Assembly (NCBI GenBank): GCA_037833965.1
Contig: AP031352.1
Location: 31,932,501-31,996,500, forward strand
Source: Marchantia polymorpha subsp. ruderalis
Lineage: Eukaryota; Streptophyta; Marchantiopsida; Marchantiales; Marchantiaceae
Reading direction: 5' to 3'
Length of the DNA stretch: 64,000 bases
The position numbers and the translations under genes are program-made. The stretch's first letter is position 1; every line of letters starts with the position of its first letter. Below the pieces are notes generated by a model, which searched no databases, was not told where the DNA came from, and saw nothing but the letters and a program-made list of their open reading frames with translations. This document shows positions 15,282-59,500 of the stretch, in pieces.

Positions 15282-15313
15282 GATCGGTCCCGGTTTTATC
15301 ACCGGGACCGATC
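15282..15313. repeat. Perfect 13 bp hairpin
   Basis: GATCGGTCCCGGT and its exact reverse complement are separated by TTTATC. It stands just left of a GGACAG-rich stretch and the duplicated unit at 15,467-15,684. Confidence 0.75.
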
Positions 15314-15466: not shown

Positions 15467-15684
15467 CAAGTCAATGCCTCCCTTGCATCCGTGACTATCC
15501 GAGGCAATGGAGGAAGGGTACACTACCCTTTCAGTAGAGTACGCGTACGACGCAGAGAGGTGAAGACTCGAATCAGTATCAAGTCAATGCCTCTTCGGGA
15601 GGCATTGACTTGAGGAGGCTGGGAATGGAGGCTGGGTACAATACCCTTTCAGTAGAGTACGCGTACGACGCAGAGAGGTGAAGA
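15467..15684 (+). repeat. Tandem duplication (~115 bp) with internal hairpin
   Basis: Two direct copies both run from CAAGTCAATGCCTC to GAGGTGAAGA, at 15,467-15,566 and 15,580-15,684. Each contains 'accctttcagtagagtacgcgtacgacgcagagaggtgaaga' with almost no change. In the second copy a perfect 14 bp hairpin forms at 15,580-15,612 (CAAGTCAATGCCTC, loop TTCGG, inverse arm). The first copy has only a partial version. Confidence 0.75.
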
Positions 15685-15879
15685 GCCCCAGCTTCTCTAT
15701 CTGTAAGAGGCCGGCTCTTTTTCAGAGCTGGGTTCTCTTGCGTCTCGTTCGTACTCCACAAATGGGCCGACACTTTCGGTCACTGATTAATGCCCTTGTT
15801 CCTTAGCCAGGCCACCAATCTAGAAATCTTCATGTACGAGTGATCTTCTTGCCTCGATAGCAAATTCAGATTCAACATA
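15667..15879 (+). repeat. Dispersed repeat R1, copy 1
   Basis: Collinear with 29,936-30,178 in the same orientation. Shared blocks are GACGCRGAGAGGTG, AGCCCCAGCTTCTC, AATGGGCCGACACTTT, GGCCACCAATCT and AGATTCAACWT. Both copies show short indels but keep block order, so this is homology and not chance. I see no terminal features of a known transposon class. R1 is the first of three paired segments described under findings. Confidence 0.75.
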
Positions 15880-18180
15880 TTCTAACCGGGCGTGGCGACT
15901 TTATGCAGCATTGAGACTACCACTAGTGGACAAATCCACATACGATCCTTCGTCAAATTGTTGTGATTCAACATTTGTAAGTAAAGCCGTCGATGCGTAC
16001 GTTCTCTAAACGAGTATTAATAATCACCTCGTGGTGAATGGGGGTAGGGAGTTCGCTGCATTATGTTAAGTACCTGTATTTCAGTGGATATTGCTTAGTT
16101 GTGATGTGCAAGGCTGCTGGCTAAGAGAAAGAACAACCAACTGAAATGCGATCCATGATAAAGGTAGTCATATCACTAGATTTCTACATTGTGAGAGCTT
16201 TCAAGTCAATGAATACGCAGAAATATGTAAACTTTTCTGCACTGAGTAAATGGTCGGACTTATTTCTGGGAAGTCGTTTGCTTGTAGCAGTTCACCGACC
16301 TCCATTGCCTTCCGGTGGAGGCCAGCGGGTCCTCAAAGGGGTTTTCCTACTTGTAACCCAGTCTGTACTCTAACGCGTAGCAAATCACATGAAAGCAGTA
16401 TGTACTAACCAAGGATATCTTTGTGTGATTGCAACGAGACCCTCGGTAGGCATGGAATTCTTTCATACGCCCAATTACGTCCAGGGCTCATATCCAAGTT
16501 TTTCGATCTACTTGCACGTCTTCGCATTGGACGAGAAGAAAGAATTCTCCAACCGGACTTATCTACACATCAACTCATTAGTTCCCCTATCACAATATGA
16601 TAAACATATGATAGAGGAAATTATGAATTTGTCTATCATATCTTGTGGTTAACATCTTCATCTTACCTCCGAATACCTAGATGTCCCTCTTACTCAATCC
16701 TGTTTTCCAAAATCAATTTTAATCTGTGCTACTCCTAAGTGATTTTCACCACCCGGTATAAATAAATTTTTTCTTTCAATTTTCAATCTTAAAGGCATGA
16801 AAATTCTAATTTTGTTTTTCTATCTAACCTTTCAATATCTTCTTTATAACTCTTTGAAAATGGAAAATGAAGTATCCATACCTCAAGGCCATTTCTCATT
16901 GAGAAATGGTCTTGAAGTCATTTTTCATTGTTCATATAGATATTCACATGATCTGCAATATCTGTCATTAGAGCAAAACAAAGCATCTCTATCACCTTTT
17001 TCTAAGAATTATGCTCAAATTTAAACTTCAGTGTAGTTACTTCGTCAAATGGATATAATTTTTTCCGTTACAGCTTGTAACGCACTTATTACTAATTTTT
17101 CCTTTGATTATGCATATATCGTGGTTTAAAAAAAAATTAGAAGCTTGTACAAAGTACTCCAAAGGACTTTGATGTAAGATTTCTGATGTAAGATTCTTTG
17201 TGGTCAGGAAATACCACAAAATACTGCTGATATGATGATGTCTTGGTTGCTGATTAATAAAATAGCGATTTTTTTTGAATATTTTGTGGAATAGTCTAAG
17301 CTATAGTCCCTTGGTTTGTGTTGAACAAATTGGACATCACCTAAAGCGCTTCTGAGAAACTTGGCCACGGTTTTCAACTTTGTACAACAAAAGTATGGAG
17401 CACATATTATAAAAATAATCGGTGATCAGGTATAAATATGAAATCAGCTCCCAACACAAATCAAGATGGAGCACACAAGATCCAATTTGGAAAGATCTAA
17501 CATCCAACATAAAAAACCAAGATTGCCTTTCTATTTTGAAATTATTATAATCCATCCAAAATTTGGTGTTATACTTATTTCAAATTTGACATATAAATAA
17601 AATTAGGGGATTTTTTAGTTCATTTCAAGCTATTAAATTCACCCCATTGCTAGTATGGCTGTAAACTGAAATCAATATCTTGCTTGTATTTCCTGGTTAA
17701 CTCATGCATCAAACGCTAAAAAGTAAGTTTGTTGTGAGATTCCGTCAAATGTTGATATTTACATATCTCTTGGAGGGCGACTTGTTCTTTGGGTAAATGT
17801 GGTTGAGGTTCAGGTTTAAAAAGCTCTGCGCGCTCGCAAAGATCGTAAGATGTTAACGTTTCAGGAGATAGAGAAAGGTTTTTATTTTCGATACGGTTTT
17901 GGGGATGAATTGGTTGGATACCTTGCGGGTTTTTCTATAGTGTGTGCAATTGTTGGAAACAAGGCAATAAAATACACGATCAATTGTGGTGGCAAGTAGT
18001 AGGTAGGACTTTGTTAGCAAGGATGCACACAAAAACCAGAAGCTAAAAGCGCCACAAGATCTTCAGAAAGAACTTTAAATGCGTAGGTAGGGAGTGTTCT
18101 TATAAAATCTCTTTAGTGGAACTTAGAAGTTCCAATGATCTTGGGACATGAGTTGGTCTAGTGCGTGTCCCTGGAGTTCT
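15880..18180. other. Sequence without a recognised gene
   Basis: The first ~120 bases still align weakly with the sequence after R1 copy 2 (both contain GTGATTC followed by AACATTT). From about 16,700 composition becomes AT-rich. There are short open frames only, and none shows domain features. Confidence 0.4.
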
Positions 18181-19440
18181 GCAATGGGTACCCATCCTTA
18201 CCATGGTACAATGGGTGGGTAATGGATATCAGCTTGGACGCATGGATATCGGATGGGGACGAGAGAGCCGGATTTTAAAACAATTGAACTCTCGGATTGC
18301 GCCACTCTAATAACTATGACTTGTAATAAACTTGCATTCAACCGGGTGAAAAAGTCTAATTCATGCATTGAATACATACCTTTTTAAACACATGCTTTAC
18401 GAATGAGCAATTTAGTGTTGCTTGTAGATCAAAGTGGAGTAAAACACAAGATTGTGGTCTACGGCAAGCTTTCTAGCATATTCAACCCAATCCTTAGATT
18501 TTCAACCTCATCAACGTGCAAAAAATCTTGCCGTTTTGAAGATATATTAGAACTTGTTGATCATAATTAGCAGATGACATTGGAGTTCAAGAAGTTCAAG
18601 CACTCGACTCTTCACAAGGTCCTATGATGATGCCCATGTGATCTTCAGTCATCTTTGATTGGTACTTAACGATGTGGTGGACGAGGATGGCAACATGACA
18701 ATGGCCAAAGACTCCGACATGATCAAGAGGATCATACTAGCGCTTTTGTACAGCAAGTTTGTCCTTGATAGTGTCCACGTTATGGCGTTGTGGCTAGATC
18801 CAATTAAAAAATTTCATCTTGTCCGTTCCGATCTTGAGCGCAATCAGATTGAGCACGCTAAGGAAGCTTAAGTTCCGCTTGTTCGATCACCGGTCAGGAA
18901 GAACTGGCACTCATTGGTTTTGATGTACGATCAGATGCTCAATGACGACGATGAGTAAGATAACATACTTCCTGCTGAAGATCACAATGACATTGCCGCC
19001 ACCCTCAAAGCAAGAGTCAACAACGAGTGCGAGGCGCACATGAAACACAAAGTCACCAAATGAGACAGTGTCTTGATAATAACGCTAGCGGTGAGTTACA
19101 AGTTATGTCGTGGTAAAGGCACAAGGGCAAGGAACTATATTTTATACTAGCGCAAGTCGTGTTGTCCATCCTATGCATCCCAACATCCAGCGGCATGTCC
19201 GAGAATAACTTCTTGGACGCTGGCAACATCCTAATCAAGAAGCGCAATCGATTGAAGCTCTGAACGATAAACAACCTCATGTTCCTGCACTCTAATTGTG
19301 ACATTTGTATGTAATTATATATAATAAATCATTGGCGCGTCTATCTTTTTAAAAAAAAATCAATTTCTTCTTAAGTAGCTTTACTTTGGTGATGGATTGA
19401 TGGGTAGATAATAGATATGGATAAGGTGTCATGGGTGGAT
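18180..19440 (+). mobile_element. Truncated hAT-family transposon with broken transposase
   Basis: The transposase is recognisable in the plus strand at 18,659-19,303. An open stretch of 70 codons includes ALWLDPIKKF (about 18,785-18,814), the LDPR-K-F-type block of hAT transposases. After a frame break, 19,159-19,303 reads SIPCIPTSSGMSENNFLDAG, NILIKKRNRL and, after one TGA, TINNLMFLHSNC. These match in order the hAT dimerisation domain (Dimer_Tnp_hAT): S-IP-T-S--SE--F---G, KR-RL, N-L-FL. The BED finger and catalytic core are missing or unrecognisable upstream. Subterminal-like GGGTACCCATCC and TGGGTGGGTAAT motifs occur at 18,186-18,224, and GGGTAGAT/GGGTGGAT at 19,400-19,440, but I find no confident terminal inverted repeats. 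The element is dead. Confidence 0.75.
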
Positions 19441-22140
19441 ACAATTGATCTACGCACAACTCTGGATCAAATATGGCTAAAGTTGTCAAGCCCAGTGACT
19501 CTGTTGTTCATGCTCCACAGGCGAAGCAGTAGCAAATTGCGGTGTTTTTTTATATGCATATGAAGTATCATTACTCACTTGTGCACCAAAGATGAAAAAA
19601 AAATGAGAAAGAAAGTCTTGAAAGTATACTCGATGCAACAAAAAGAAAAATTAAATTCTTGTATGTCTTGTGGTCATAACAACAGCAGTGATGAATTTAA
19701 AAAGATGAATTACAAAATCTCAATAAATCAATGCTTTGAATTTTAGATGTAATGAGTTAAACTATAATGACATAAATATCATTTTTTTCAAGTATAAATA
19801 TTTATTGATTTTGCATCATATATATAAGTTTAAATAACAACTTGAACTTTTAACGTGCACTACATGTTTAGTCAATTATCATATCATAAATCACAATTCA
19901 CAAAGATTGAAAATGAAATCAAAAATAAAATTAAAGTTATATGTAAGTCAATGTCACGGAAGTTGCAAACTTTTTCAAATAGGGAAGCGGTATGTACATT
20001 ACCCAACAAGTAGGCAAGATGGACTTTTTCCAACTTGGAGGCGGTGCGCACTTTCTCAATTTAGTGCGTCCTAGCAATATAAATTTAGAGACTTGTAACA
20101 TTGTTCTTCACTAGTTGAACTTGCACTTTCAATATCAACATTATGTCTTGTTTTCTTGTTACTACTTCCATCTTTGTTGTTTCGAGTGTCATTACTTTCA
20201 TTGTTTGAGCTCAAGTTTTGTGTGAGTTGATGTCTGCAACAATCCAAGATTTCATTTCAAAAGTTTTTTCTATGTGAACAGTTAGATGAAAATAATATAT
20301 AACATATTTTGTGAATAATTTATCTTCATCTTCAAATATCTACATATGATGATCTAAAATGGATAATAATATAATATGATGTCAATATTATAATTTTAAG
20401 TTTTGTTTACATCACATCTATAATTTTTTTAAATCTTGTCATTATATTAAATAAAGTCATTATACCCAAGATTGTTCAGATATTTTTGAAGATTATACTA
20501 TATTACCTGATATCATAACATCATAATTAGTTATTTTTCTATATGAAGTTAAAGTTACATACTGCAATTCAAAATTTCTCAAAGTTTTTAAAAAAACTTA
20601 CATATCATACAAATATTATGTACAAATTGGAATTTTCTAATATTAATAATAATAAAGATATGAACATTACAATAATTTTTTATAATTAATCCAGTGATGC
20701 AATCAATAAAAATTAGCCTATATGTCATTAATAATCAATAAAATAAAAATTTAGCAAACATGTATTTTAAACAAAAATTAGTAAATAATTATTCCAATTC
20801 CAATATAAATATCAATTATAATTATATGATCTATATATTATGTGTCATCTGAATCAAATATTTCAAAATACTCAAAATTCTACAAAACTTATCGAAGAAC
20901 ACAATTTTAAATCTAGAATCTTAATCACTTCTAACATAATGATTCTAAAATTGTTGATTTCTAGATTATTTGTTCTCTTGAGATTGTAACCAAAAAATAC
21001 AATAAAAATCTTCAAAGCTTCATCAAGTTCAATCATTAGTCCAACTTATTACATCCATGATGATAGTTGTCATTATGACATGTAAGGAGGTCAAATGAGT
21101 TTTATACTGATAGAAAACAAAAAATTTATTCATCACACATTATAAAATATATCTTTATTTAAATATAAAGTAATTGAATTTAATTTGGAGATATATATGT
21201 CATGAAAAATTTCGGTGTTTGAAAATAAAATTACTTCCAAAATCTCTAGGAACATAATTTCTAAGATTTAAGACCAAAAAAAGAATGTTAGATTCAAATC
21301 CACAAGCTGAAATTGCTTACAACTCTTAAATTTTATGGTTGGGTATAGATACAAATATCACGATTTATATCATGAATCGTAATCAAACTGAAATCCAAGT
21401 TAAGTAGCATGTAATAAGATCATCAAGTTTCTATTAGCCAAAGGAGCTAGTCCTTACAATATTTTAAATTGTAATTTAAAAAAAATTTATGGTCATGAAG
21501 TTATTTCCATTATTTCTTATACATAGCTTCATTTCAAAAAATACAAACAGATTCTTAATTTAAACTTCAATTTATTTTTGTGTGTTTTCAATATCAAGAT
21601 CAGGAAATGATATTTCAAAAGTTTGTTGAATCCTAAATTTGTAATTTAACATCAAAAAAAGTTGGGAAAAAATCAAAATCTGGATAAAAGCATACTAATA
21701 ATCAATTTCCTAGATTTTTTATTATTTTAATAAATAATAAATGATAGTTTTCTATAAACGCTTTAAGTTTTACAGTAAGATTTATGAATGGATGATTTGA
21801 ATCCTTAGATTCAAATAAAAATCCTCATTTTATAAGAAATTACATTATTTTATTATACTTTATAGTTTATAGAAAACATTGAATTTATACTTAGAAATTA
21901 AAATAAAATGGAAAATTATCACGGAATTACAACATGTTCATTTTGCTTCGACTTGTTATGATTAAAATTCTCCATTTCCAAAAAATTCTATTTCCAAGTA
22001 TTTTAACTTGTTGAAATATAGTCAAAAAGTTTTAGTAAACTACAGTGAAGTTATATGATCTACGAATAAAAATTAAATCCACTCCATTCATATTCTTTTC
22101 ATAGAAGATGTTTTGACAGTCTTGTTTTATTCTCAAAGTT
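19441..22140. other. AT-rich sequence without a recognisable gene
   Basis: Very AT-rich with poly-A/T runs and frequent stops in all frames. I see nothing supportable here. Confidence 0.5.
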
Positions 22141-22970
22141 AATTGTAGAATCTCTGTCTCTGCGTTAAACAATGTCACGGCATCATCGAGGGTTTAAATG
22201 TTGGAATTCTTAGCAACTCATCAATCAAGAGGGTCGAAGCTATTTGCTTGACACCTTCCCCCTCCGGTTACCGAGTAGCCATGGCTTATGCAAAAAGGTA
22301 GGGCATGGGCTAGGGTGGGCGATTGCTTGCAAGGATTAGAATCTTGGCGTGAAGAAAATATCGATCTTCGTACGAATGCGGCGAAAAAAACTTGAGGGCT
22401 GCGGTGGAAAACCCGGATCCCTCCAAAGACTTGAGGGCCGCCAAGAAAAAACTTGAGTGCCTCCGTGTAAAACCCCGAATTAGCTGGTAGATGCGCGGAA
22501 AAGCAGAACCCGTGCAACACGGGATGATTATTTCTGAATGATAATTTGTGGACCAACTTGTAATGTGTGAGGAAGAGATATTGGAAGCCTGGATGAAAGC
22601 GAAAGCGTGATTATTGCGTCTGATCATGGTCCGACAACCTCTGTCCTAACAAGGCTTCACTACCTTTTCAGCGGCGTGTGAAGTGTAGCCAATGGATGCC
22701 GTGGATGCTGGAAGCCTCAAAAGCCGCAATCTCATTATCGAGTTGCAAGATTGTAGTAAAGGAATTTGCTGTGAATACGGGAAAAATGGAACGTATTGGG
22801 TCCCATCAAGCAGTCAGCGTTCTGATGGGGTCCATCAAGCAAATTTCTCTAGTAAATACCTTTCATAGCTTCTTTCGGATTCTCGGCGGATTCTGAAGTC
22901 TGAGCCCAGACTCCACTATGAACCAACCCAAAGCTCCTCTTGACGATGAGGAAGGAGTGATACGCACTTA
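22141..22970. other. Transition region with short internal direct repeats
   Basis: The block AAACTTGAGGGCTGC...GAAAACCCGGAT is followed by two similar pieces (ACTTGAGGGCCGCC and ACTTGAGTGCCTCC...AAAACCCCGAAT) at about 22,388-22,480, a degenerate three-copy tandem repeat. Overlapping minus-strand frames of 105 and 111 codons arise from it. They share the repeat's periodicity and show no known domain, so I do not call a gene. Confidence 0.4.
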
Positions 22971-23240
22971 GAATATCCGTGATCAGACTAGCTCATGGAC
23001 CTGGAAAGCAGTGGTGAAAAGCGCAGCCAGCCGCCTCGCCACTTCATAGAATAGATCAGATAATCCTCCTCCTCACGCCAGATATGTGTTCCCGTTCAGC
23101 GAGCAAGCCGCCATTGCATAGGGCTTCCATACCGAGAACTTTCAGTCTCGAGAGTGCCTAAACTAGTTCCGGTGTATCTAAACTGTCGAGCTCCTTCAGA
23201 GTGACAGGAGGAGAGGATATGTACAGGAATCTGACTGTCA
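22971..23240 (+). repeat. Dispersed repeat R2, copy 1
   Basis: Collinear with 31,301-31,566, same orientation. Shared blocks are AATATCYGTGAT, AGTGGT-AAAAGCG, CCGCCTC-CCAC, CCTCCTCACGC-AGAT-TGTGTTCCCG-TCAGC, AGCAAGCCGCCAT-GCATAGGGCT, and GCCTAAACTAG followed by TATCTAAACTG. It is the second of the three paired segments. Confidence 0.8.
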
Positions 23241-23813
23241 GTTTGTCGGGGGGCCCAGCGTTCGGGCCACCGGGAATTTTCTTTAATCCAGTAAAATTTT
23301 GGAACTGTTGTCGCTAATCTCGGACTCCAAGAATGCAGAGGAATGCAATCACTTTGGATGGGAGGAGGCTTTCCAGAAACGACCTCATCCTCCAGAGGGG
23401 CAGGGGAATCTGATGCAGACGATATTGAAATTGCTGGCAGTAAGATGTGAGGAAGCCTCCCAGTCTCTAATTGGAATTATATATGGCAGCAGACCGCTTC
23501 GAGCCGTATTGGATGAGTCCAAGTGTGGGGCTAGGCCCCAACTTCATCTGCGGTCTGCGGGGAGCGCGTTTGTCCGTGCTTCTGTAAAAGATCCACGCTT
23601 TACTCCTTGGGAAGTCCAGACTCCATTCCCAACGGATGACAAAGTCGGGCGTCCGGGGAGAACTCAATCAAGCCATGCTTCGTGCTGGTGTAGAGTAGGG
23701 GAGTCCTCCTCCACCAGCACCGCCAACATCAGGCTGAGTCGTCTTCTACGCGGAGAGTACTTCCCGTACGTAGAAATGTTAGCGCCACAGGCATCTGCCA
23801 GAAGGGTGAAACC

Positions 23814-24344
23814 ATGAAAATCAAACCACCAATACGGAGGAGGGCCTCCTGCCGGGCCGAATTCGCCAAATCTCTTCACCCGGGCGTGCATCATACGACT
23901 CCACACAGTAGCCACACGGACAGCGGAAGTTCTAAGGACATTCCGGAACCATTGCAACGGCACTACGAGAAACGATCACATAGGTTGCCTCAAATTTCAA
24001 CTCTCGTGCAGCCGAATCTACTGACGATCAAATGGTGGCCTCGGAACCACCGAATGGCTGAAGCCAACGAAGAAATTTCCCCCAAAGTTGGTGCGGTTGA
24101 CAGTCGATCACTTTTCGTGAATCTCCTCAACTACGCGGAAATGCATCCGCCGCTGGCTGCGGATGCATTTCCCGTCGTCGTCGCCGCAGCCAGCGGCGAC
24201 GACGATCTGCGTATGAGTGCTCTGGCTTCGAGACTCGGAGCTCTGCTCTCTGCTCTTTCTATCCCCAGCATGTCAAAACTAGGACCCTTCCTTCTTCCAT
24301 TGGAAGCCCACGCGTCAGCATCGCTTGCTTTCCCGGTGATTTGA
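23814..24344 (+). CDS. Uncharacterised 176-codon open reading frame
   Basis: This is the longest ATG-initiated frame in the window. The first part is basic and polar (His, Arg, Ser, Pro rich). The last third turns hydrophobic and Ala/Leu-rich (for example LGALLSALSIPSMSKLGPFL). No family is recognisable. Against it: the frame passes through a complex palindrome at 24,138-24,204, an antisense frame of 96 codons overlaps its 3' part, and local GC content alone makes chance frames longer. There is no visible intron or conserved motif. It may be a lineage-specific gene, part of a longer transcript, or chance. Confidence 0.22.
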   Translation: MKIKPPIRRRASCRAEFAKSLHPGVHHTTPHSSHTDSGSSKDIPEPLQRHYEKRSHRLPQISTLVQPNLLTIKWWPRNHRMAEANEEISPKVGAVDSRSLFVNLLNYAEMHPPLAADAFPVVVAAASGDDDLRMSALASRLGALLSALSIPSMSKLGPFLLPLEAHASASLAFPVI

Positions 24345-24421
24345 AATGCATTTGCCGTATCGATGAACGATGGTGCTTGGCCGGCACCGGAGACGGGATC
24401 GTTGTCCTGTGACGTGGGCAT
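24131..24421 (-). CDS. Uncharacterised 96-residue open reading frame
   Basis: It starts ATGCCCACGTCACAGG and encodes an acidic-to-neutral, Ser/Ala-rich protein with stretches such as QAPSFIDTANAFQITGKASD and ERAESRAPSLEARALIRR. It ends in a low-complexity Ala/Ser/Gly tail that coincides with the palindrome at 24,138-24,204. Composition is more protein-like than the sense frame opposite it, but I recognise no domain. The palindromic tail suggests that the 3' end is not ancestral coding sequence. Confidence 0.25.
   Translation of the reverse strand: MPTSQDNDPVSGAGQAPSFIDTANAFQITGKASDADAWASNGRRKGPSFDMLGIERAESRAPSLEARALIRRSSSPLAAATTTGNASAASGGCISA
24138..24204. repeat. Two adjacent perfect hairpins with mutually complementary cores
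   Basis: Hairpin 1 pairs GAAATGCATCCGC (24,138-24,150) with its inverse at 24,159-24,171, loop CGCTGGCT. Hairpin 2 pairs CGTCGTCGCCGC (24,176-24,187) with its inverse at 24,193-24,204, loop AGCCA. In addition CCGCTGGCTGCGG around loop 1 is the exact reverse complement of CCGCAGCCAGCGG around loop 2, so the two hairpins can also pair with each other. Confidence 0.85.
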
Positions 24422-24429
24422 GCCAGGTG

Positions 24430-26640
24430 CACCTTCGGCCAAGTGGATCCATCCCGTACGGAGTGACAATTGACGTCGGGCAACGAAAAAGAGAAAGCTG
24501 GGCAGACGAACGAGTACTTAAACATGTCATATCTACCCTCTACCCTCTTTCCTACATGTATGTCCCTTAAGCCCGACCCTGTGGAGGGGCACTACCTCGA
24601 CCGCGTGTGCTCTATAAGGGAACCTTCCATGTCTGTCCATGGTACGGGAATACTCCGAATGTGTAGGACTTCAGGAGGCGAGCTGAGAGCTAAGCTAACC
24701 ACGAGGGGAATACGGCAGTTGTACATGCGGTGATGGATAAGACGCACTGTGTTAGTTGTTGATTGTAGAGCATGTCGCTCATTTCACCTATTGAATAAAG
24801 CGGTGGAAGTAAGTTGCTAATGGAAATGGAAAGGTTCCTCCACCACCTGCTACATTCGGTCCACAATCGTTTCCCGTTGTGGCCTCAAGAGCAAGAGGCC
24901 TAAAGCAGGTGCCTTCCAGTACTGCTGTGGTACTTTGGGAATCTCTATCCCTGTAGGCCGCTATTAGTGCAGCATGTTCATCACGTAAATCAGGGATAAA
25001 GTTCACTTAAGTTATTCGATTGCGTATGTAACTTGCGTGTCCGTGGTTACGAAGTTATCTTCATCACACAGCCGCAGCAGCAGCAGCAGCGGTTCATGTG
25101 AGGAGAGTCTCGACGAATAAGTAGCGCCATTTTCTGCAATAACTCGATGCTTAACAACTCGATGACTTGATTCGAGAGTCCGGACTGACCTGATAATGCG
25201 GCTACCTGACAACGTACTTCAAAGATTCTCCAAGAGAGCCTTGTCTAGAAGCTCCGGCTAACGCAAGTTCGTGAGCCGCAGAGCCGACTCTTGCATAAGA
25301 GTCCACTCAGCTGGCCACGTGACGGATTCGACTTCTCTCATGTACTTGTCTCTCCTCACAAGGACATGCAAGAACCTTTGGACGAACGTGTGAAGATCAA
25401 AACCCATGTCCTTTCAGGTCTTAATGTTGAGAAAACTTCACAATCGGCGGAAGCTCACTTGAAGCGTGCCGTTGTGTTTCAGTCGTAGCATCCTCAAGAG
25501 TATCCAACACTCCATACTGCTGCGCTAGGCCTCCACCACATACTCGCCACTTCCAGTCTGGCTGGCTGTCCTGCTTCCTCACATGCACATCTGATCTTTG
25601 AGTCGACCACGTGAGTTGCACACTTGCACCGAAAATGGTCTTACAAGCATTTTTCAAAGCTCTCTCCTTCCGCGGCTGCTGCGTGGCCTTCCACTTGAAA
25701 GTCTGTTTCTACTGTCTTACAACCGCGTGTTGTTGTTCTTGTTATGTCCGAGAATCGTTTTCCAACGGATCGTGGAAGATGGTTTAGGTCTCCCTACAAA
25801 TATGAATCTAGCTCCTGGCTAGCTCCTGGCCGTCGGCTACCGCGTTCGGACAGCATTCGAGGCCTTTGCAGATACAACCCCATTGAAAGGGAGTCCATGC
25901 ATGTCCAGACACTACAGGTGCAAGGTCCAGGCCGTGCTCGACAATTGAACTTACCTTTACCTTTACTTGATTTCACAATATGCAGTGTAAGATCCAAAGC
26001 TTCCTCAACACTTCCTTCTCCTTCTTTTGGGGAATCGAATAATGCTTTTAAGCTTCCTTTACACTTCCTCTCAGACGAGAACCTGCGGGATCTGCATAGC
26101 TATAGTTAGATTAATGTTGATTTGGACTTGATGCAACATTTGATTGATCGTTTATTTTCGTACGCACGAATAATGGCTAAACAGCTACGGATTCCTAGCT
26201 CTGTCCGTAAAGGCTTCATCGCATTTCGTTCTTACCTTAACATTGGACTTCGATCTCTAGTCGTATTACCGTGATCCTACATGCCTGGGCTTGCGCTCGT
26301 ATCGACTTTCTTCTACGGTGCAGGGAAAGGTTTTGCAGATAAAGATAATCTGATCCAGATTCACACTTTGTGTAGAAGAACTGACCCGGTGCCCGAACTC
26401 GAAAGGGGAATCAACAAGTTTGAGAAAAAAGAAGTTGAAGAAAGTCAGTGGATCCATGTCGTGCTCGACGATTGACCTCAACCTCACTTCCTTCCTAACA
26501 TTCGATAACGACTACTACTGTACAGTCCTTTGTTTGACCTGCCATCAACGCTTGATAGTCAATGATATCTTCTTCGGATAACTACTTTGCTCTTGGGGGC
26601 TACGATTTGACATGGTGACGAGCAATGTAAATTGTACAGA
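24430..26640. other. Balanced-composition sequence without a recognised gene
   Basis: Only short overlapping frames occur. A (CAG)6 microsatellite lies at about 25,074-25,091 and a tandem 'tagctcctggc' pair at about 25,809-25,829. No RNA gene is seen. Confidence 0.4.
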
Positions 26641-26679
26641 CCGGGACATGAACAGCCTGCGCTCAGTTCGTGAGACATT

Positions 26680-26964
26680 GCTGTGGAGCTATAGACGCAT
26701 TTCATCACGTTTTCTCAATATTGTCAACATTTGCACCACGTGGGAACTGCGCTTCCTCATTTGTGTGAGTGTAGTCACTCAAGGTGACTTTAAGTTTAGG
26801 TTACCAGGTCGAAGGTCAGTTGCGGCTTCCATCAATTAGATTTCCAACTCAGGTGTTAACCTGAGTTGGAGATCTCGGGTTAGATGAGGAAGAGCAGTTC
26901 CCACGTGGTGCAAATGTTGACACTATTGAGAAAACGTGCTGAAATGCGTCTATAGCTCCACAGC
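26680..26964. repeat. Large foldback: 81 bp inverted arms, 78 of 81 matching
   Basis: Arm 1 is 26,680-26,760 and arm 2 is 26,884-26,964. Counting by eye, three mismatches separate them. Each arm contains a G-box in TTCCCACGTGGTGCAAATGT orientation. The 123 bp between the arms holds a perfect 11 bp hairpin at 26,844-26,869 (CCAACTCAGGT, loop GTTA). AGGTTACCAGGTCGAAGGTCAG at about 26,799-26,820 is the inverse of the sequence immediately outside arm 2 (26,964-26,985) with one mismatch. The arms resemble part of the R3 promoter-like module. Confidence 0.85.
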
Positions 26965-27315
26965 TGACCTTCAACCTGGTAACCTACACTCAAGGTAACT
27001 CAAGGTGACTGCCTAACCCGAGCTCAGGTTAGGCAACCAGAAACTCTCAATGGAATGTAAAGAGGTCAATCTGCCATCGCGGTGACTACAGAGCTAAGAT
27101 GAGGTTGGATGGTCAAGTCCGCAGTCGATGAACCCAACTGACCGGCAAGAGGGAAACCAGGACTCAAGGTGTGAACCTAACCCGAACCCAGGTTAGGTGA
27201 CCGGTTCCAGTCGTTGGGATTTCTCCTAGCAATTCAACGCCATAGATGGATCCGATTGACCAAGAAGACGATAACCAAGCCTGAAGGAGATAGGCTGACC
27301 CGAGATCAGGTCAAG
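26963..27315 (+). repeat. Three diverged tandem units, each with a CCTAACC/GGTTAGG-type palindrome
   Basis: Units pair a CTGACC/TTGACC block, about 50 bp, and an interrupted palindrome: GCCTAACCCGAGCTCAGGTTAGGC (27,011-27,034), CCTAACCCG-AACC-CAGGTTAGG (27,176-27,197) and TGACCCGAGATCAGGTCA (about 27,295-27,312). The intervening CTCAAGGTG is shared by the first two. The same palindrome occurs in R3 at 28,170-28,191. Confidence 0.65.
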
Positions 27316-27927
27316 TCCAATAGATGGTGCGTCGATGTGACGAGCCAAAATTCAACGTGGTTCGTGACGTCTGGTTTAAAGGTGGTACCGAACTTATGGA
27401 CATGTATCTTTCTTCGAACTATGAATGATCCTATGCTGAATTACCCAACTTTTTTCTTCAAGAGGCAATTGACAGTTAATTCAAACAGAAGAAGCTGTGT
27501 TAAACTTTTCTTGATATGTTCTCTTCCTGGAATGTCTTTCTGATTTTGTTTTAATAAAAATTGATACATTATCTTCTGACTGGCAATTTATAACTATCTC
27601 AGCATGACTTCTTATTTGTTGAAATAATATGTTGCGGTATGTGCAAAAGGTTTGAAGAAATAACTTCAAAAAATTCAACCACGGGTAAAATCATATCATT
27701 TTTGAAAGTAATCACGTTAATAGTTACTTGAACTTTAATTTCAAACTTTACAAAACTACTGTTTAAATATAAAGACTAGAGTAAGCTTAAATGCGTAACA
27801 TATGAAATTCATTGAACATGTACAAAATATTAAAGTTCTCGAACTGTCCTGTCTTTATTGGAATATCATGCAAGCAGTCAAGGATTGATGGAAAAATTTC
27901 ATGCATTTCTATCAACCTTTATAACTA

Positions 27928-27967
<40 letters not shown>

Positions 27968-28120
27968 ACTCTGTTGAATTCTCTATGCTCATTTTTTACT
28001 TAAATTTCTGATTTACCTTTTTCACTTGCGTTAGCTATCACATTTCTTTTTGTATGAAATATATCTCTTGTTGCAAACAAGAATTAAAATTCGCCACATG
28101 ATTTCTTCTTGTTCATCGAC
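27316..28120. other. AT-rich spacer
   Basis: Composition turns AT-rich from about 27,540. It contains a (TA)15 microsatellite at 27,933-27,962. No gene is recognised. Confidence 0.5.
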
Positions 28121-28420
28121 AATGGTCGACATGTACCTGGATAAACCTGAGTCCAATGACAGATAGAAACCTAACCCGTGTGCAGGTTAGGTGTCTCTCT
28201 CTCTCTTTCAGTCAAGTGAGAACGCCAAATCCCCACGTGCTGAATAAATTGACCACGGGAACATACTGAACAAAGAAGAGTTCCCGGCTCTATATACAGT
28301 AGGGAGACTCCCATCTCATACAGGAACACTGACGGAGCCCCTCCATGCAAAAGTACGGGTCGGCCAGACAGCGTTTTGACAGACTCTGACGACAGGTTTG
28401 CAGGCCGCAGGTGCTCATGT
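28120..28420 (+). promoter_or_regulatory. Promoter-like module R3, copy 1
   Basis: In order: CCTAACCCGTGTGCAGGTTAGG palindrome (28,170-28,191), a CT run, AAGTGAGAACGC, a G-box in CCCCACGTG (CACGTG 28,234-28,239), TTGACC, CCCGGCTC followed by TATATACAG (TATA box at 28,291), GGGAGACTCCC, and CCATGCAAAAGTA, then 'tttgcag|gccgcaggtgctcatg'. The whole order recurs at 31,895-32,390. CCTAACC resembles plant MYB AC-type elements and CACGTG is a bHLH/bZIP site. TATA at a fixed distance suggests a real RNA polymerase II promoter or an LTR-like promoter. The sequence after the ATG reads AAGAHVTLLSISAH, which hints at a glycosyltransferase-like start but soon breaks. Confidence 0.55.
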
Positions 28421-29930
28421 TACTCTTTTATCTATTTCCGCTCATAAATGCCAGGAAAGTTGCAGATCCAAGATTCTCGTGTCTTTGTATGACAATTTGG
28501 CTTTTTATAAGGCTGTCTGTTCTTGCAGCGTTCGTGTGTTAGCACTTGTGATTAAGTTTGTAACAATGATCATAAGACTCAAGTTGATTGATTTTAACAA
28601 ATTTAGTATCAATCCAAAAGTATTACATCTCAAAGTCATGATCATTACAATATTGCAAGCTCTTACAGATAATCTCAATTGCAACACTTACTAAATTCAT
28701 AAATATTTCATTGATTAATATAAAAATTCGTCGTTTTGTCAAATAAAATTCTTAGATTTCGCAAAAATGTTGCATTTTGAACTTAAACATTTCTTCTTCC
28801 GAGTTATTTTTTCAAAGCTAGATTTGTAGGATCTCGATTACTTTCAGTAATAAGGACTTATTCCAATTACTATAAAAAAATAACCATAAATCAATTTTCA
28901 TATCAAGTTTAATTCATGTAGGCTTCACAAATCACAACCTCTCGATTTGATCTAGTTGAAACTTTCACTTGGTAACTATAATAATTCATCATCATGCAAC
29001 CTAAACCAACTTGAGTTTTACATTCTTTGGCATTTGTATGTACTTTGAGTTCAAGTAAAGCAATTTTGAGCCCACATGTGCTGTATGGAGGCTTTTTTTC
29101 ATTCCCTATTTCCTACGAAAATTGCAAGTTGGGAGATGTCAGTGGAAGAGCAAAAATGCTACAACACAATATCGTAACATATATATATCAAAGGAAGATT
29201 GGGAATATCTTAGCAAGTGAGTTCTTTGAAAAAAATTTCTGAATTTGATGAACTCAGGATGATGAGCGCACACTCCAGAAGTCTCCTTCAAGAAGTCTAT
29301 GTAAGAAAGTGGAAATCATGTTCTTCACATGCAATTACATTCCCGAGCTATGCATTGACATATTTATTTGCACGGAAAGTTAACCGGGGCTGATTTTTAA
29401 AGTACACACCTAGAAGTGAGAAACAAGGGAAAATATTACATATATACAATCTATTCCTGACATTTATAAAGCTAAAATTCAAACTGAAACTGAAACTTTG
29501 CTATGCAAATGCATAGCAGTAATGGTTAATTTTTTGAACCGGGCGCTTTGAGAAATCAAGCAGGTTTGATGTTTCAAAGACCCTTCATTAGGATGATTCA
29601 ATTTGGCAATATGACTACGTGTTTGCGGACTAAAGTACCACCACTTAACATAAGTTGGCACTCTTTCTTGTTTATGAACCTGATTCATTTTTCGATGACA
29701 TAGTTTGCATATGATGTTGAATCGTCTACAAACTGTTATTTAATTCAGAATAATTTCTATTTGTATATTTATTTATTTCGATAGATCGAAGAAAGATGGA
29801 ATTAAAGGAGGGATGCGTGAAATTGGAGGAATCTCGTTGAAGCAGATCCAACATATCTTGAATTGAAGCTGGTCGCCTCGCTCCCTGTTTCTCCAAAGGA
29901 AACTGCACAGAGGGACGCAATGTACGATAC
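28421..29930. other. AT-rich to mixed sequence without a recognised gene
   Basis: Short overlapping frames only. The 98-codon plus frame from 28,398 is partly antisense to a 60-codon frame and loses protein-like composition after about 35 codons. I see no RNA gene or transposon end. Confidence 0.4.
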
Positions 29931-29935
29931 AGTTT

Positions 29936-30178
29936 GACGCGGAGAGGTGGACAGCCCCAGCTTCTCGAGCGCCCTCTCTTACGGCGCTGGGCGCCCTGGA
30001 CTCTCGTTCGCCCTCCACTAATGGGCCGACACTTTGGGACGGACACTGAATTAACGCCCTCGTTTTCCGGGTCCGGCCACCAATCTCCGGTGACCGCAAT
30101 CTGGAAGTCCTGAACCACGACTGTTCTTTTCCTAGACGAGACCTTTCTTATCCCTACAGCTAATTTAGATTCAACTTC
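29936..30178 (+). repeat. Dispersed repeat R1, copy 2
   Basis: Partner of 15,667-15,879. The similarity extends weakly upstream: CTCGTTGAAGCAGATCC at about 29,830 aligns with CCGTTGGCAGCAGATGC at about 15,392. A 152-codon minus-strand frame covers this copy, but copy 1 does not keep that frame open. The open frame is therefore probably a by-product of GC-rich repeat sequence and not a gene. Confidence 0.75.
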
Positions 30179-30327
30179 CTTCAAGCGGGAGCTCGTGAAA
30201 CTATTCAGAGCTCAGAATTCCACCTGTGCACCATTTGGACGCTTCCCTCACGTCAGTTTGCAGTGATTCCTCATTTGAACATTTAGAATTCGAGCAAATG
30301 TTTCTGAATCACGCGGAATGAGTAGTG

Positions 30328-30390
30328 AAAGATACATCATAGCCTATGATGTATCTTTTTTTTTTCCCCCATGATTCATAGGGGAAAAAA
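30328..30390. repeat. Two adjacent hairpins
   Basis: The first is a perfect 14 bp hairpin, AAAGATACATCATA, loop GCC, inverse arm (30,328-30,358). Immediately after it TTTTTTCCCC (30,360-30,369) pairs with GGGGAAAAAA (30,381-30,390). Confidence 0.8.
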
Positions 30391-30933
30391 GGATATCTCT
30401 ATGAGCGGGGTCTTAGAAGTTGCCTAATGTTTCGCCGGGAGAACCGGATTTCAACTAAGGACTAGCTCGTTGACTGATGAGTTGATTATCAATGAGTATC
30501 GAGAATCGTAATCGGGCGTTGAGGAAATACCAAGTACTAACGCAGAACAGAATATGAAGATACCATCGAGTCTTACAATGACGACACCCACTAGGTAGAG
30601 TGAGGAAAGCTGGAGGGTACAACGGCGACTAGCCCCACTAGCATCCCAATCGTTCTAAACGAGCATCCGAGTACGTCACTTTGTGCAATCCGAAGATTGC
30701 GTACACAGCGAAAAGCAGGAAACGCAGAGAATGAGGATCTCGGGCGCAGACAGCAGCAGCAGTGAGGACTGATAACTTTTCAACGTCAAGGACAACCGGA
30801 AGAAATCAGGAATTGACATTGAAGAGCATTCAGTAGGCACGCGCTAAGTATGAATTCGTTCCCTAAAAGCCGACGTGTGTGACCTTAATTACACTGCAGC
30901 CTAGACCCATTCCGACCGTATGCATGTGGGCTG

Positions 30934-31386
30934 ATGGCATACGGTCACCGTCGTGACGGTCTCTCCTGTGTAGGCGACCGCCACATTACCCGCCCATTCA
31001 CACTACGGCGCGCTCACTCACGCACAATCTGCGCAGACGTGCGCGCTGCATACGATCGATTATCCACGAATCTGAAGAATTTCTCTCTCACTAAGTCCAT
31101 GCAAGGAATCCGGAGAGCAGCATTAGCTAGTGTTGCAGTTCGGGCGGGTAGACTGTGGCTACTTCTGACTTTTCGGACAGTATACTGTAGAACAAATAAG
31201 GAGGAGATATTTGAAGACCGGAAGGAAATCCGAATCAAACGCGAAAGCGCAGTTAATGCGACAGACAGCTCCGACAGCTCAGAATCTGTGATGAGCACTT
31301 GCAATATCTGTGATTGGTGTACCTTCTGTCAGCTGCACCTGGACAGTAGTGGTCAAAAGCGAAGACGGCCGCCTCTCCACCCATAG
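30934..31386 (+). CDS. Uncharacterised 150-codon open reading frame
   Basis: It begins with ATG at 30,934 and encodes a basic first half (HRRDGLSCVGDRHITRPF) and a mixed-charge second half with a Ser/Asp run (ATDSSDSSESV) and four Cys (CNICDWCTFC), which could bind metal. The last third overlaps repeat R2 copy 2, whose partner at 23.0 kb does not preserve the frame. A 96-codon antisense frame covers the middle. No family is recognised. I judge coding possible but less likely than not. Confidence 0.22.
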   Translation: MAYGHRRDGLSCVGDRHITRPFTLRRAHSRTICADVRAAYDRLSTNLKNFSLTKSMQGIRRAALASVAVRAGRLWLLLTFRTVYCRTNKEEIFEDRKEIRIKRESAVNATDSSDSSESVMSTCNICDWCTFCQLHLDSSGQKRRRPPLHP

Positions 31387-31566
31387 TACCGATCGGATTG
31401 TCGATCCTCCTCACGCAAGATCTGTGTTCCCGGTCAGCCAGCAAGCCGCCATGGCATAGGGCTCCCATATTGGAAACTCTCAGTGTCCACTCTGCCTAAA
31501 CTAGAACTCGTTTATCTAAACTGATCAGCTCCTTTGACAAGAGGGTGTCTATCGGGATCTGACAAT
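31301..31566 (+). repeat. Dispersed repeat R2, copy 2
   Basis: Partner of 22,971-23,240. It lies about 1.1 kb downstream of R1 copy 2 and about 0.35 kb upstream of R3 copy 2, the same order as the first copies but far more compact. Confidence 0.8.
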
Positions 31567-31894
31567 TGTGCCATGAATCTGTCACCGTGCTACATAACGT
31601 TAGGCATAAACAGAAATTTGAGGCAAACCGGAAAAATGAAGAAAGTTTAGATAGGTTCCAGACTTTCAATAGTCTTAACATTCACAAGAAGTATTTTCAA
31701 TTCTGATAGTGCAACCTCAACTCTGGATTTTTCTTTCCTACACTAAAATACATTAAAATATTTATTGGCTAGAGTTGGAGTTTGCACATGTCAAATCTGG
31801 TGTCTTTCCACTTGGAACAACTGCGTATGCCAGTGCACCCTCATACGCGTCCAAACTAACAGATGACTAGAAAATACAGTAGTTCTCATCGTAC

Positions 31895-32390
31895 AAACAA
31901 TGTTCTGGATCCTGGAAAATTCGCAGTCCAAGGACAGATAGAAACCTAGACTGGACCTGACCTGTTTTCCCCCCTCCCCTCACAACCTTCTTTTATGTCG
32001 GGGGGAAAGCGCAGAGCGGATTGATTGAACCCACATATAAATCTACATATTCGCGGCTTCCCTCGCCCTCCGGGGCTCCCCCCACCAGTTATCCCCTTTT
32101 TCTCGCCACTTGCTGGATGGGGAGCCGGCCTAGTGCTAACAGACGAACCGAGGTACGGGTGTGCAGGTTAGGCCCTTCTCGTGGTTAAGTGAGGACGCAC
32201 ATTCCCCATGTGCACGATTTGTTGACTGTAGGGACTAATAGGAATAAGGGAGACTTTACGGGGCTATATACGGAGACTCTCCCTCTCTCATCGGACAGGC
32301 CATGCAAAAGTAGGGTGAGTGTGTTGTGAGATTTTTGTGACCCTCTGACCGATCTGGCGACATGTTTACAGGCTGCTGGTACTCATGTTT
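31895..32390 (+). promoter_or_regulatory. Promoter-like module R3, copy 2, with a ~180 bp insertion
   Basis: CAAGGACAGATAGAAACCTAG (31,929-31,949) matches CAATGACAGATAGAAACCTAA of copy 1. About 180 bp of unrelated sequence (31,966-32,150), starting TTTCCCCCC with GGGGGGAAA at 32,000-32,008, then interrupts the palindrome. Homology resumes at ACGGGTGTGCAGGTTAGG and continues through AAGTGAGGACGC, CCCCATGTG (a G-box with one change), TTGAC, GGGCTATATACGG (TATA at about 32,265), GGAGACTC, CCATGCAAAAGTA and TTTACAGGCTGCTGGTACTCATG. The ATG is followed directly by a TAG after four codons, so this copy does not encode the same start. Confidence 0.55.
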
Positions 32391-32523
32391 ACCTCTGTCT
32401 AATGGTCAACTGAGATCAAGACAAATGTTTTCAAGCATCATGGTCCCCTTTCATTCTGCCGAAAATTTGTCAACTCTAGACGTCCATGAGGACGAGCAGC
32501 TCTTCCAGGAGCGTCCTGCAGAA

Positions 32524-32696
32524 GATTCGATTTCGATTCGATTCGATTCGATTCGAAGATTCGATTCCTTTCCTCTCGTTCTCGTGGCAAAAGAATTTTA
32601 TAAGATCTCCATTTTCAACGATAGATCCCGTCAGCCTCCAGCATGACTACTTGCCCTCCGCTCCCTCTCTAGGAGGGGGGGGGGGGGGGGGGGGGG
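32524..32696 (+). repeat. GATTC microsatellite and a 22-G homopolymer
   Basis: A GATTC-type array (TTCGATTCGATTCGATTCG) occupies about 32,524-32,565. An uninterrupted run of 22 G lies at 32,675-32,696. Confidence 0.85.
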
Positions 32697-41060: not shown

Positions 41061-42671
41061 TCAGTAGTCGTCGTCTCCCCAGAATCGGGACTTCTTATGC
41101 AACTTCCGCACAACCTGTAGGACATCTGCCGGGGCAGCAGTTCCGGTGACAGTGATCATTTCTTTGCGCACGTCGCAGTACACAGATCGGACACCCTTGA
41201 GCTCGAATAGGGCGTTCTTCGCCTCCTCCGAGCACGATTCGCAGCAGATCGGAACTTTCAACACCACGGTCTGCACCACATCCAACCATCACCTCACCGA
41301 GGTCAGATTCCAGTCCAATCTCAATCCAGCATAATATCCACTCATCCACTCATCCTCCCGATCCTCCATCACAGTCAGCAATCAATCATTCACTCTGCAT
41401 CCAATTACACTCTTCGTCTACACGTCTACACATTAAACATATACACATCTTCACATCAGCCACATCTAAACCGCCGCGAGGCCGACTCAATCGAATTCTG
41501 CTCGATTCAGATCGACACCAATTCGATGGCGATTCCTAATCAATCAAGGGAGCACGGCGGGCAGTCGATTGAAGGAGAGAGCTGGGGGGCATGGGAGGGG
41601 GAGGTACCGAGGGCTTCCGATATTCGTAGTATTCGTTGGGCCTGGAGTCGTAGAAAGTAGCGTCGTATTCGTACGGGGTGTGGGTAGGGGCGTATGCGGG
41701 CGCCGCCGCCGGATAGTAGGCACCCGGAGTGGTGTAAGAATCACTGTAAGCATCGGTGTCGTAGTACCTGCCGGGCGACGACCGTCTGTAGTAGTCGTTT
41801 GAGTACCTGTCGCCTACGGCGTAAGCACCGTAGTCCGTGCGTCGCGTTTCACCGCCGTAGTAGTCCGAGTATCGGCTGCGGGAGTTACCTCGGTAGTAGC
41901 CTGCCGACTCTGGGTGACCACGGTAATACTTGTCGGCCGGTTCCACGTAGCTCGATACGCGGCCCCGGCGGACGGGGTATGCGGCGGTGTCAACAACGAA
42001 CACGGGCTCCTGATCTCCATAGAAGAGCTGCACAGCAATCATCAGTCCGCAGCCTTTGGTTAGATTTCGCTCCAGCTCGACGAGCAAAATCGCGGTACGA
42101 AGAAATGGAGCGGGATCGACTGGGTACGGATCGGTCTTCGGTCCTCGGACAGATGCAGTCTCGACAGCACACGACGCTTCAACTTACGCTGGGATTCGCT
42201 CCGCTTTTACACGCACGAGAATAGAGCAGAGTACAGCAGACAGTAGAAGAGAGAGAAGAGGTGAAGGCAAAAGAATTTGGAATAGCCAAGCAGGACAGAT
42301 GACCAAATTCACGAAACAGAACTGGACGACTTCAGCTGGGGAAACGGATACAACATCGTCGGATGCTATCTGAATTCCTCATCTTCCGCAATGCGAGAGC
42401 TCTGAATCGGTCGGAATTCGCTGAATTCGTGCTAAGTGGCCGACCTGGATTACGCAGGGGCAGACTCCTGAAGCTGGCGAGTGGCCTACCTACTCTGAGA
42501 CTCTGAGCTACAGACAACTCTGGGACTGTACAACCTATGAGCAATCAGGTCGGTCTGCCAGAATTGTAGGACATCAAAGAGTGAACTCGTCGACTCTGGT
42601 CTGCGGAATGGAGTAGATGCTAGCTAGATGTCCGGAGTCAGACTGTCACTTACTTCGTTTGCGGACATCAT
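41061..42671 (-). CDS. Heavy-metal-associated (HMA) domain protein, two exons
   Basis: Exon 2 (41,270-41,061) encodes an almost complete HMA fold: TVVLKVPICCESC, with the metal-binding CxxC as CESC, then the helix EEAKNALFELKGV, the strand SVYCDVRKEMITVTG, PADVLQVVRKLHKKS and the end RFWGDDDY. A donor GAA|GTAAGT at 42,654/42,653 and acceptor GGTGCAG|ACC at 41,271/41,270 join in phase to a tiny exon 1 (MMSANE, ATG at 42,671), giving 75 residues. An alternative start, MDVVQ at 41,285, needs no splicing. HMA proteins of this size bind Cu, Zn or other soft metals in the cytosol and act as chaperones or detoxifiers. There is no C-terminal CaaX box, so it is of the non-isoprenylated (HPP) type. The 5' leader is CT-rich and carries the 227 bp duplicated segment. 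The intron is 1,383 bp and contains another open frame on the same strand. Confidence 0.85.
41536..42042 (-). CDS. Tyrosine-rich protein resembling the tail of isoprenylated HMA proteins
   Basis: From ATG at 42,042 the frame encodes 168 residues beginning MIAVQLFYGDQEPVFVVDTA, then a long Tyr/Arg/Ser/Asp-rich region with repeated YY pairs (DKYYRG, GYYRG, DYYGG, DYYRR, RYYD, AYYP, EYYEY), and a proline-rich end (PSVPPPPMPP). Such Tyr/Pro-rich tails normally follow the HMA domain in plant HIPPs, but no HMA domain precedes it here and no CaaX box ends it. An intron acceptor may lie at GCTGTGCAG|CTCTTC, in which case MMSANE could splice onto LFYGDQEP in phase and yield an alternative product of the same locus. 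The frame stays open upstream to about 42,180 without another ATG. Antisense frames exist, but composition favours this one. Confidence 0.55.
   Translation of the reverse strand: MIAVQLFYGDQEPVFVVDTAAYPVRRGRVSSYVEPADKYYRGHPESAGYYRGNSRSRYSDYYGGETRRTDYGAYAVGDRYSNDYYRRSSPGRYYDTDAYSDSYTTPGAYYPAAAPAYAPTHTPYEYDATFYDSRPNEYYEYRKPSVPPPPMPPSSLLQSTARRAPLID
42124..42350 (-). repeat. Duplicated leader segment, copy A
   Basis: 227 bp, nearly identical by eye to 42,785-43,011 in the same orientation. On the minus strand it is CT-rich, contains CTTCTCTCTC-type pyrimidine runs and ends GGTCCTCGGACCGAAGACCG. It lies about 80 bp upstream of the ATG of the Tyr-rich frame and is probably its 5' leader or core promoter. 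Confidence 0.8.
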
Positions 42672-42784
42672 TTTCGCTGTAGATATGTAGAACTCCGGAG
42701 AATCGAGTTTAGGTGAGAAAGGTGGCAATCAAGACGCTTGAGGTCGAGGAGATCGTCGTCGCGTGAGATGTAAGGGATGAACTC

Positions 42785-43011
42785 GGTACGATTCGGTCTT
42801 CGGTCCTCGAACGGATGCAGTCTCGACAGCACACAACGCTTCAGATTACGCTGGGATTCGCTTCGCTTTTACACGCACGAGAGTAGTAGAGAGTAGAGCA
42901 GATAGTAGTAGAGAGACAAGAGGTGGAAACAAAAGAATTTGGAATCGCCAAGCAGGAGAGATGACCAAATTCACGAAACAGGACTGGACGACTTGAGCTG
43001 GGGAAACGGAT
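42785..43011 (-). repeat. Duplicated leader segment, copy B
   Basis: Second copy of the segment at 42,124-42,350. On the minus strand it precedes the HMA gene's ATG (42,671) by about 110 bp and ends with the same GAGGACCGAAGACCG block. After it the two copies diverge completely. Confidence 0.8.
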
Positions 43012-58880: not shown

Positions 58881-59500
58881 ACATCCATATATCTTCATTG
58901 TTCAAAATGTATGATAATTTTGTGCTATCTGATTTGAGATTCAAATTGCTTGATACAAAATACTGTAATCATTCATGATTCATCTACACGTAGATGAATC
59001 ATGTTAGATAACATATCCATGTTAGATTTTTTTTCTCTTCTCAATTATTTCAAGGTGTAAAGATAGCTCTATTTCAAGATGTAAAGGTAACTTTATGTGT
59101 AAAGGTAATCATAATAATAAATATTTACTTCTATTTATCAAACTAACACATTTTATTTCTTTGCTGTAAAAATAAAATGTAATCAAACTTTGAAAATTAG
59201 TGATAAATCTACTAACTGATACCAAAGCACTATAAGGTTAAGTTTGGAAAGCTTGAAGATGTGGGTTCACAAGAGAGTCTGAAATATTGATAAAAAAATG
59301 ATTTGGATGATGCACAAGATTAGTTGAGGTTACATTCAGTCCGGGGCAGACCTAAGTCTATCCAAGCTTAGTAGGGATGATATGTCGTGGAATTTATTTG
59401 AGGCTTGGGACTACAATGTAGTTAGTGCTTTGTGTGATTATAAGCTATGGAAAAACACCATAAATAGTGTGGATGTTGTGTGTGTAAATGTAACTCGAAT
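58881..59500. other. AT-rich sequence without a recognised gene
   Basis: A short inverted repeat (ATGATTCATCTACACGTAGATGAATCAT, 58,974-59,001) is a perfect 28 bp palindrome. Nothing else is firm. Confidence 0.5.

Follow-up and report, generated by a model that had tools for sequence, protein, structure and literature searches.

The stretch of Marchantia polymorpha subsp. ruderalis DNA analyzed here (64,000 nucleotides of contig AP031352.1, C3:31,932,501-31,996,500; hereafter the window) contains three sequence blocks, R1, R2, and R3, that occur twice in the same order and orientation, once spread over 15.67-28.42 kb (copy A) and once within 29.94-32.39 kb (copy B). Judged by sequence comparison, the two copies very probably descend from a single old, local, direct-orientation duplication of otherwise single-copy, apparently noncoding DNA.

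Collinear blocks in two copies

When 15.0-29.4 kb was compared to 29.4-33.5 kb by blastn, five blocks were collinear and on the same strand, with R3 split into R3a, R3b, and R3c. The other 5 of the 10 rows in the list had an E value of 0.60. The blocks and the sequences associated with them were as follows.

R1: copy A 15667-15821 (+), copy B 29936-30086 (+); 73% identity over 161 columns, E 6e-20
R2: copy A 22957-23196 (+), copy B 31288-31534 (+); 76% identity over 248 columns, E 6e-45
R3a: copy A 28136-28173 (+), copy B 31911-31948 (+); 84% identity, E 8e-6
R3b: copy A 28178-28240, copy B 32159-32213 (+); 73% identity, E 0.014, weak on its own and absent from the masked list at E 0.01
R3c: copy A 28377-28421, copy B 32346-32389 (+); 82% identity, E 8e-6
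R3b-c: copy A 28178-28421 (+), copy B 32159-32389 (+); HOXD score above shuffles, with a TATA-like CTATATAC in each copy
Weak continuation of R1, copy A: 15827-16040 (+); HOXD local score, 57% identity over 15822-16040
Weak continuation of R1, copy B: 30127-30348 (+); its end overlaps a perfect hairpin at 30328-30358

The extent of the similarity was evaluated by HOXD70-type local scoring with 100 Markov shuffles per comparison. R1 scored 7008 and R3 scored 6033, as opposed to shuffle maxima of 1399 and 1466, respectively. The original prediction had placed weak similarity on both sides of R1 and upstream of R3. This held true downstream of R1, where the following 500 bp scored 3386 (shuffle maximum, 1870) and similarity reached positions 16040 and 30348. 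Upstream of R1 (970; shuffle mean, 1080) and before R3a (1169; shuffle mean, 1222), the scores were not above chance, and the same was found after R3 (1285; shuffle mean, 1325). The score before R2 did not exceed all 100 shuffles, and the score after R2 (1382) was 2.5 standard deviations over the shuffle mean of 1080, yet under the shuffle maximum of 1496.

As a control, 34 other 4.1-kb stretches from the surrounding 164 kb were compared to copy A. Three of them produced matches at E 0.01, all located in either the AT-rich block or an AT run of copy A; none of the 34 matched R1-R3. Copy B had no match leftward in the rest of its surroundings (E 0.01) and a single rightward match (E 0.007) outside R1-R3. 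The five blastn blocks, the scores above shuffles, and the controls free of R1-R3 matches bear out the prediction that R1-R2-R3 occurs twice with its order and orientation kept, the arrangement that defines a local direct segmental duplication. The spacers differ markedly between the copies: 7.1 kb in A versus 1.2 kb in B from R1 to R2, and 4.9 kb versus 0.38 kb from R2 to R3a. By block coordinates, about 7% of the copy A span and 36% of the copy B span can still be aligned.

Copy number of the blocks in the genome

Three unrelated repeat families could also have landed in the same order, in which case each block should be a high-copy dispersed sequence. We therefore searched the genome (241 Mb, nine contigs) for each block separately. 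BLAST with R1 found R1 itself, its copy B counterpart, and a local 64-bp tandem repeat overlapping the first bases of R1, and nothing else. With up to 3 mismatches permitted, core patterns of 30 bases for R2 and 24 bases for R3a each matched exactly two genome sites, those in copies A and B; when the patterns were reversed as a control, they had 0 and 1 match, respectively. These cores, which were chosen for being conserved, are identical between the copies at 28/30 (R2) and 23/24 (R3a) positions. R2 was also found at two places only by BLAST, among the matches listed for a long copy B query (40 of 113 candidates scored); the same query did not list R1 of copy A. There was no third copy at E 0.01 within 50 kb on either side.

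The many copies with unrelated neighbors that mark a dispersed repeat family were not found for R1 or for the cores of R2 and R3a. The presence of these sequences at only two local places argues strongly against three dispersed families and, as predicted, favors one old duplication. The dispersed repeats that were found lie between the blocks, which also speaks for duplication.

Sequences between and within the blocks

The sequences that separate or interrupt the blocks were as follows, none with an assigned strand.

17649-22871: AT-rich block in the R1-R2 gap of copy A; dispersed repeats with genome matches
23240-28130: R2-R3 gap of copy A, 4.9 kb; self matches and internal inverted-repeat matches only
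30873-30971: dispersed repeat in the R1-R2 gap of copy B; at least 38 matches elsewhere at 81-90% identity (40 of 113 candidates scored)
31949-32158: insertion inside R3 of copy B, 210 bp; in copy A, 4 bp separate R3a from R3b

The difference in spacing had been attributed to insertions in copy A, with copy B remaining compact. For the R1-R2 gap of copy A this explanation fits: dispersed repeats occupy about 17649-19682, 20023-20219, 22207-22524, and 22778-22871 with small gaps (the union of 16 listed intervals), a genome search with the gap returned at least 60 matches (40 of 212 candidates scored), and its 18.2- to 19.5-kb part has translated similarity to seven relatives (L014-L020). It found no such support in the R2-R3 gap, whose 4.9 kb had no genome match beyond its own inverted repeats and could be either a gain in A or a loss in B. 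An 81-bp inverted repeat within this gap (26680-26964), with arms 96% identical and a further hairpin inside its loop, had no genome match elsewhere.

Copy B did not stay compact, since it carries its own 210-bp insertion in R3 and the dispersed repeat at about 30.87-30.97 kb. This repeat is about 85 bp long and, among the matches listed, occurs on eight of the nine contigs (C2-C9). The 210-bp insertion shares 54 bp (85%) with a C2 locus and 41 bp (90%) with a C6 locus; the only candidate for a target-site duplication was an imperfect 7-base one seen by eye, and we do not claim it. Both copies were thus altered, and copy B does not simply preserve the original layout.

The hAT transposon remnant predicted in the AT-rich block was not confirmed. 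Pfam found no hAT match in four open reading frames (ORFs) of this gap or in six ORFs of its genomic relatives. In favor of a remnant, some ORFs of two relatives, L017 and L020, look hAT-like by eye, a putative resemblance that Pfam did not confirm, and the window contains a hAT domain elsewhere. Across the larger ORFs scanned (24 different ones of the window and 6 from related loci), the sole Pfam match above the cutoff was this dimerisation domain (PF05699, E 1.5e-7), in a minus-strand open frame at 56195-56605, outside the duplication.

Coding, RNA, and possible promoter signals

R2 is noncoding. Stops interrupt its best translated match in both copies, its gaps are 5, 2, 1, and 1 long, and its substitutions have no codon-phase pattern. 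No shared open frame with a codon-phase bias was found in any block, for R2 by both tests and for R1 and R3 by translated comparison alone.

No Rfam match was found in the whole window at gathering thresholds, and a tRNA scan found none. A lax Rfam scan of 29700-32600 gave six rows, all far below gathering scores; the best, a mir-219-like candidate at 31696-31801 (E 0.0084), was rejected; the other strand matches too, and the fold z-scores were -2.0 and -2.6. Consensus folding of R1, R2, and R3 on both strands gave z-scores of -1.8 to -3.5 against column shuffles, with no strand clearly ahead. R2 leaned to the minus strand and R3 to the plus strand, where 14 of 51 pairs had double changes; we do not take this as evidence of structure because only two sequences are compared. 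The TATA-like CTATATAC lies at an aligned position in both R3 copies (28290-28297 and 32264-32271). Mutation of the repeat-induced point mutation type was not indicated, TpA/ApT being <1 in 63 of 64 one-kb windows.

Divergence between the copies and possible function

Kimura two-parameter distances between the copies were 0.18 for R3a (38 columns), 0.26 for R2, 0.31 for R1, and 0.46 for R3b-c, whereas the homologous stretch that follows R1 had a distance of 0.65. Thus, R1, R2, and R3a, blocks picked for their similarity, show at most half the divergence of the homologous sequence adjoining R1. Identity in 20-column windows was overdispersed over all blocks, with 0 of 5,000 permutations reaching the observed value. 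One neutral rate applied uniformly fits poorly, given how much further the stretch after R1 has diverged despite being homologous. The slower change of R1, R2, and R3a relative to the sequence beside R1 makes constraint on them likely and suggests that they are probably held by selection.

The history that we favor would begin with one local, direct duplication of a segment containing R1, R2, and R3. Insertions and deletions, including different dispersed repeats in A and B, would then have broken up both copies until only R1-R3 could still be aligned, with R1, R2, and R3a changing more slowly than the sequence next to R1, probably under selection. We tentatively suggest that R3, with its TATA-like box, may act as a core promoter that fires rightward into transcribed parts that diverged beyond recognition, and that R1 and R2 may be upstream elements acting at freely varying distance. 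It is possible, if rather doubtful, that the two copies are paralogous noncoding units, either regulatory modules or long noncoding RNA (lncRNA) genes, as yet unannotated and about 70-90 kb from the jasmonate receptor gene COI1 of a liverwort, whose lineage has few duplicates, with both copies under selection and the spacing freely rewritten.

Several observations weigh against parts of this history. The choice of blocks by similarity exaggerates the rate contrast, mismatches within R2 alone are not clustered (P = 0.65), and R3b-c, at a distance of 0.46, is not especially slow. The CTATATAC motif occurs three times in the window, a count reached by 9 of 100 shuffles, and no similarity follows R3, where the product of the promoter should lie. 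Nor was a duplication junction found, as similarity was absent both upstream of R1 and after R3 (100 shuffles); an old duplication need not retain its junction. BLAST with R3 of copy A found only itself, missing the known copy B; a copy B query that included R3 missed copy A and yielded two short hits, located on C2 and C6. Given these missed known copies, R3b-c could have weak or distant relatives that escaped detection, and its confinement to two places is less secure than that of R1 and the R2 and R3a cores.

The rival that fares best, to which we give somewhat less than an even chance, accepts the same duplication and regards the blocks as neutral relics, chance leftovers of insertions and deletions. 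It agrees with the even spread of mismatches in R2, the lack of Pfam matches above the cutoff in the ORFs scanned in the region, and the lack of Rfam matches. It accounts less well for the near identity of the R3a and R2 cores, which were chosen as conserved, next to 57% identity in homologous sequence nearby.

We consider it unlikely, though still worth weighing, that the same duplication copied, in tandem, a noncoding or untranslated-region (UTR) transcript with R1, R2, and R3 as its exons and the variable gaps as its introns. Strand and order were retained despite widely different spacers. Scoring with approximate splice-site tables found some aligned splice-like sites, such as an acceptor-like one at 28404/32372, but on neither strand did the edges of the blocks show a consistent set of donors and acceptors. 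The implied intron lengths of 5-7 kb seem large, which counts against exons, as does consensus folding without a clear strand. In favor of such a transcript, a review of Marchantia noncoding RNAs (PMC10721683) mentions almost 30,000 undefined Marchantia transcripts, possibly UTRs or lncRNAs.

Two insertions of one low-copy mobile element near each other are improbable: the neighborhood is repeat rich, but R1 and the R2 and R3a cores have no further copy in 241 Mb, and no terminal repeats bound the unit (self-comparison, E 0.001). That three independent families happen to share one order can practically be dismissed, as no point was found in their support and each would consist of just two side-by-side members in the genome, which contradicts the idea within the sensitivity of the search.

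Other repeats and hairpins in the window

A 64-bp tandem repeat (15503-15684, 94%) has its second copy entering the start of R1 and a perfect hairpin in its spacer. Perfect short hairpins (arms of 13-15 bp, loops of ≤8) were found at 15282-15313, 15579-15613, 24137-24172, 24175-24205, 30328-30358, 49793-49823, and 58974-59003, the two at 24.1-24.2 kb adjoining each other. Including an AT run at 27933-27962, there were eight in the window and six in the 100-kb flanks, as opposed to none when the window was simulated five times with a Markov model. They are possibly template-switch mutations or small-RNA hairpins. A 238-bp direct repeat (42112-43011, 89%; 662 bp from start to start) partly overlaps a low-complexity open frame at 41539-42183. 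The starts of three contigs showed no array of telomere repeats.

Neighborhood and significance

To the right of the duplication, 72-76 kb away at about 107 kb in window coordinates, lies an ORF for a COI1-like F-box protein (locus L043, 3171-3947). Its best PDB match was Coronatine-insensitive protein 1 (E 6e-73), with TIR1 second (1e-31); PMC11663715 gives MpCOI1 of M. polymorpha as Mp2g26590. Among the titles listed from the open-licence PMC literature, none concerned the duplicated locus.

The pair resembles local (tandem) segmental duplications of plants in that two close direct copies, found nowhere else, were later broken by insertions. Unlike typical ones, it is old, apparently noncoding, and little alignable, and no protein-coding paralogue was identified. 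Short, slower-changing noncoding blocks in kept order and at variable spacing recall the conserved noncoding sequences of tandem duplicates; those flank a duplicated gene, whereas none was found here, and the blocks are known from one genome. Like long intergenic noncoding RNA genes of plants, the locus is apparently noncoding, unique, and patchily conserved; unlike them, it has no convincing splice pattern and is known from genomic sequence alone.

According to PMC9985172, no genome duplications were identified in the liverworts of that study, and tandem or segmental copies were thought to make up much of their few duplicated genes. A local event is therefore the expected kind, and the one described here is real but fairly ordinary. 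The finding is modest unless transcription or cross-species conservation holds. With two copies of very different spacing, the locus is a natural setting for testing which of its noncoding patches are held by selection and whether their spacing has any effect.

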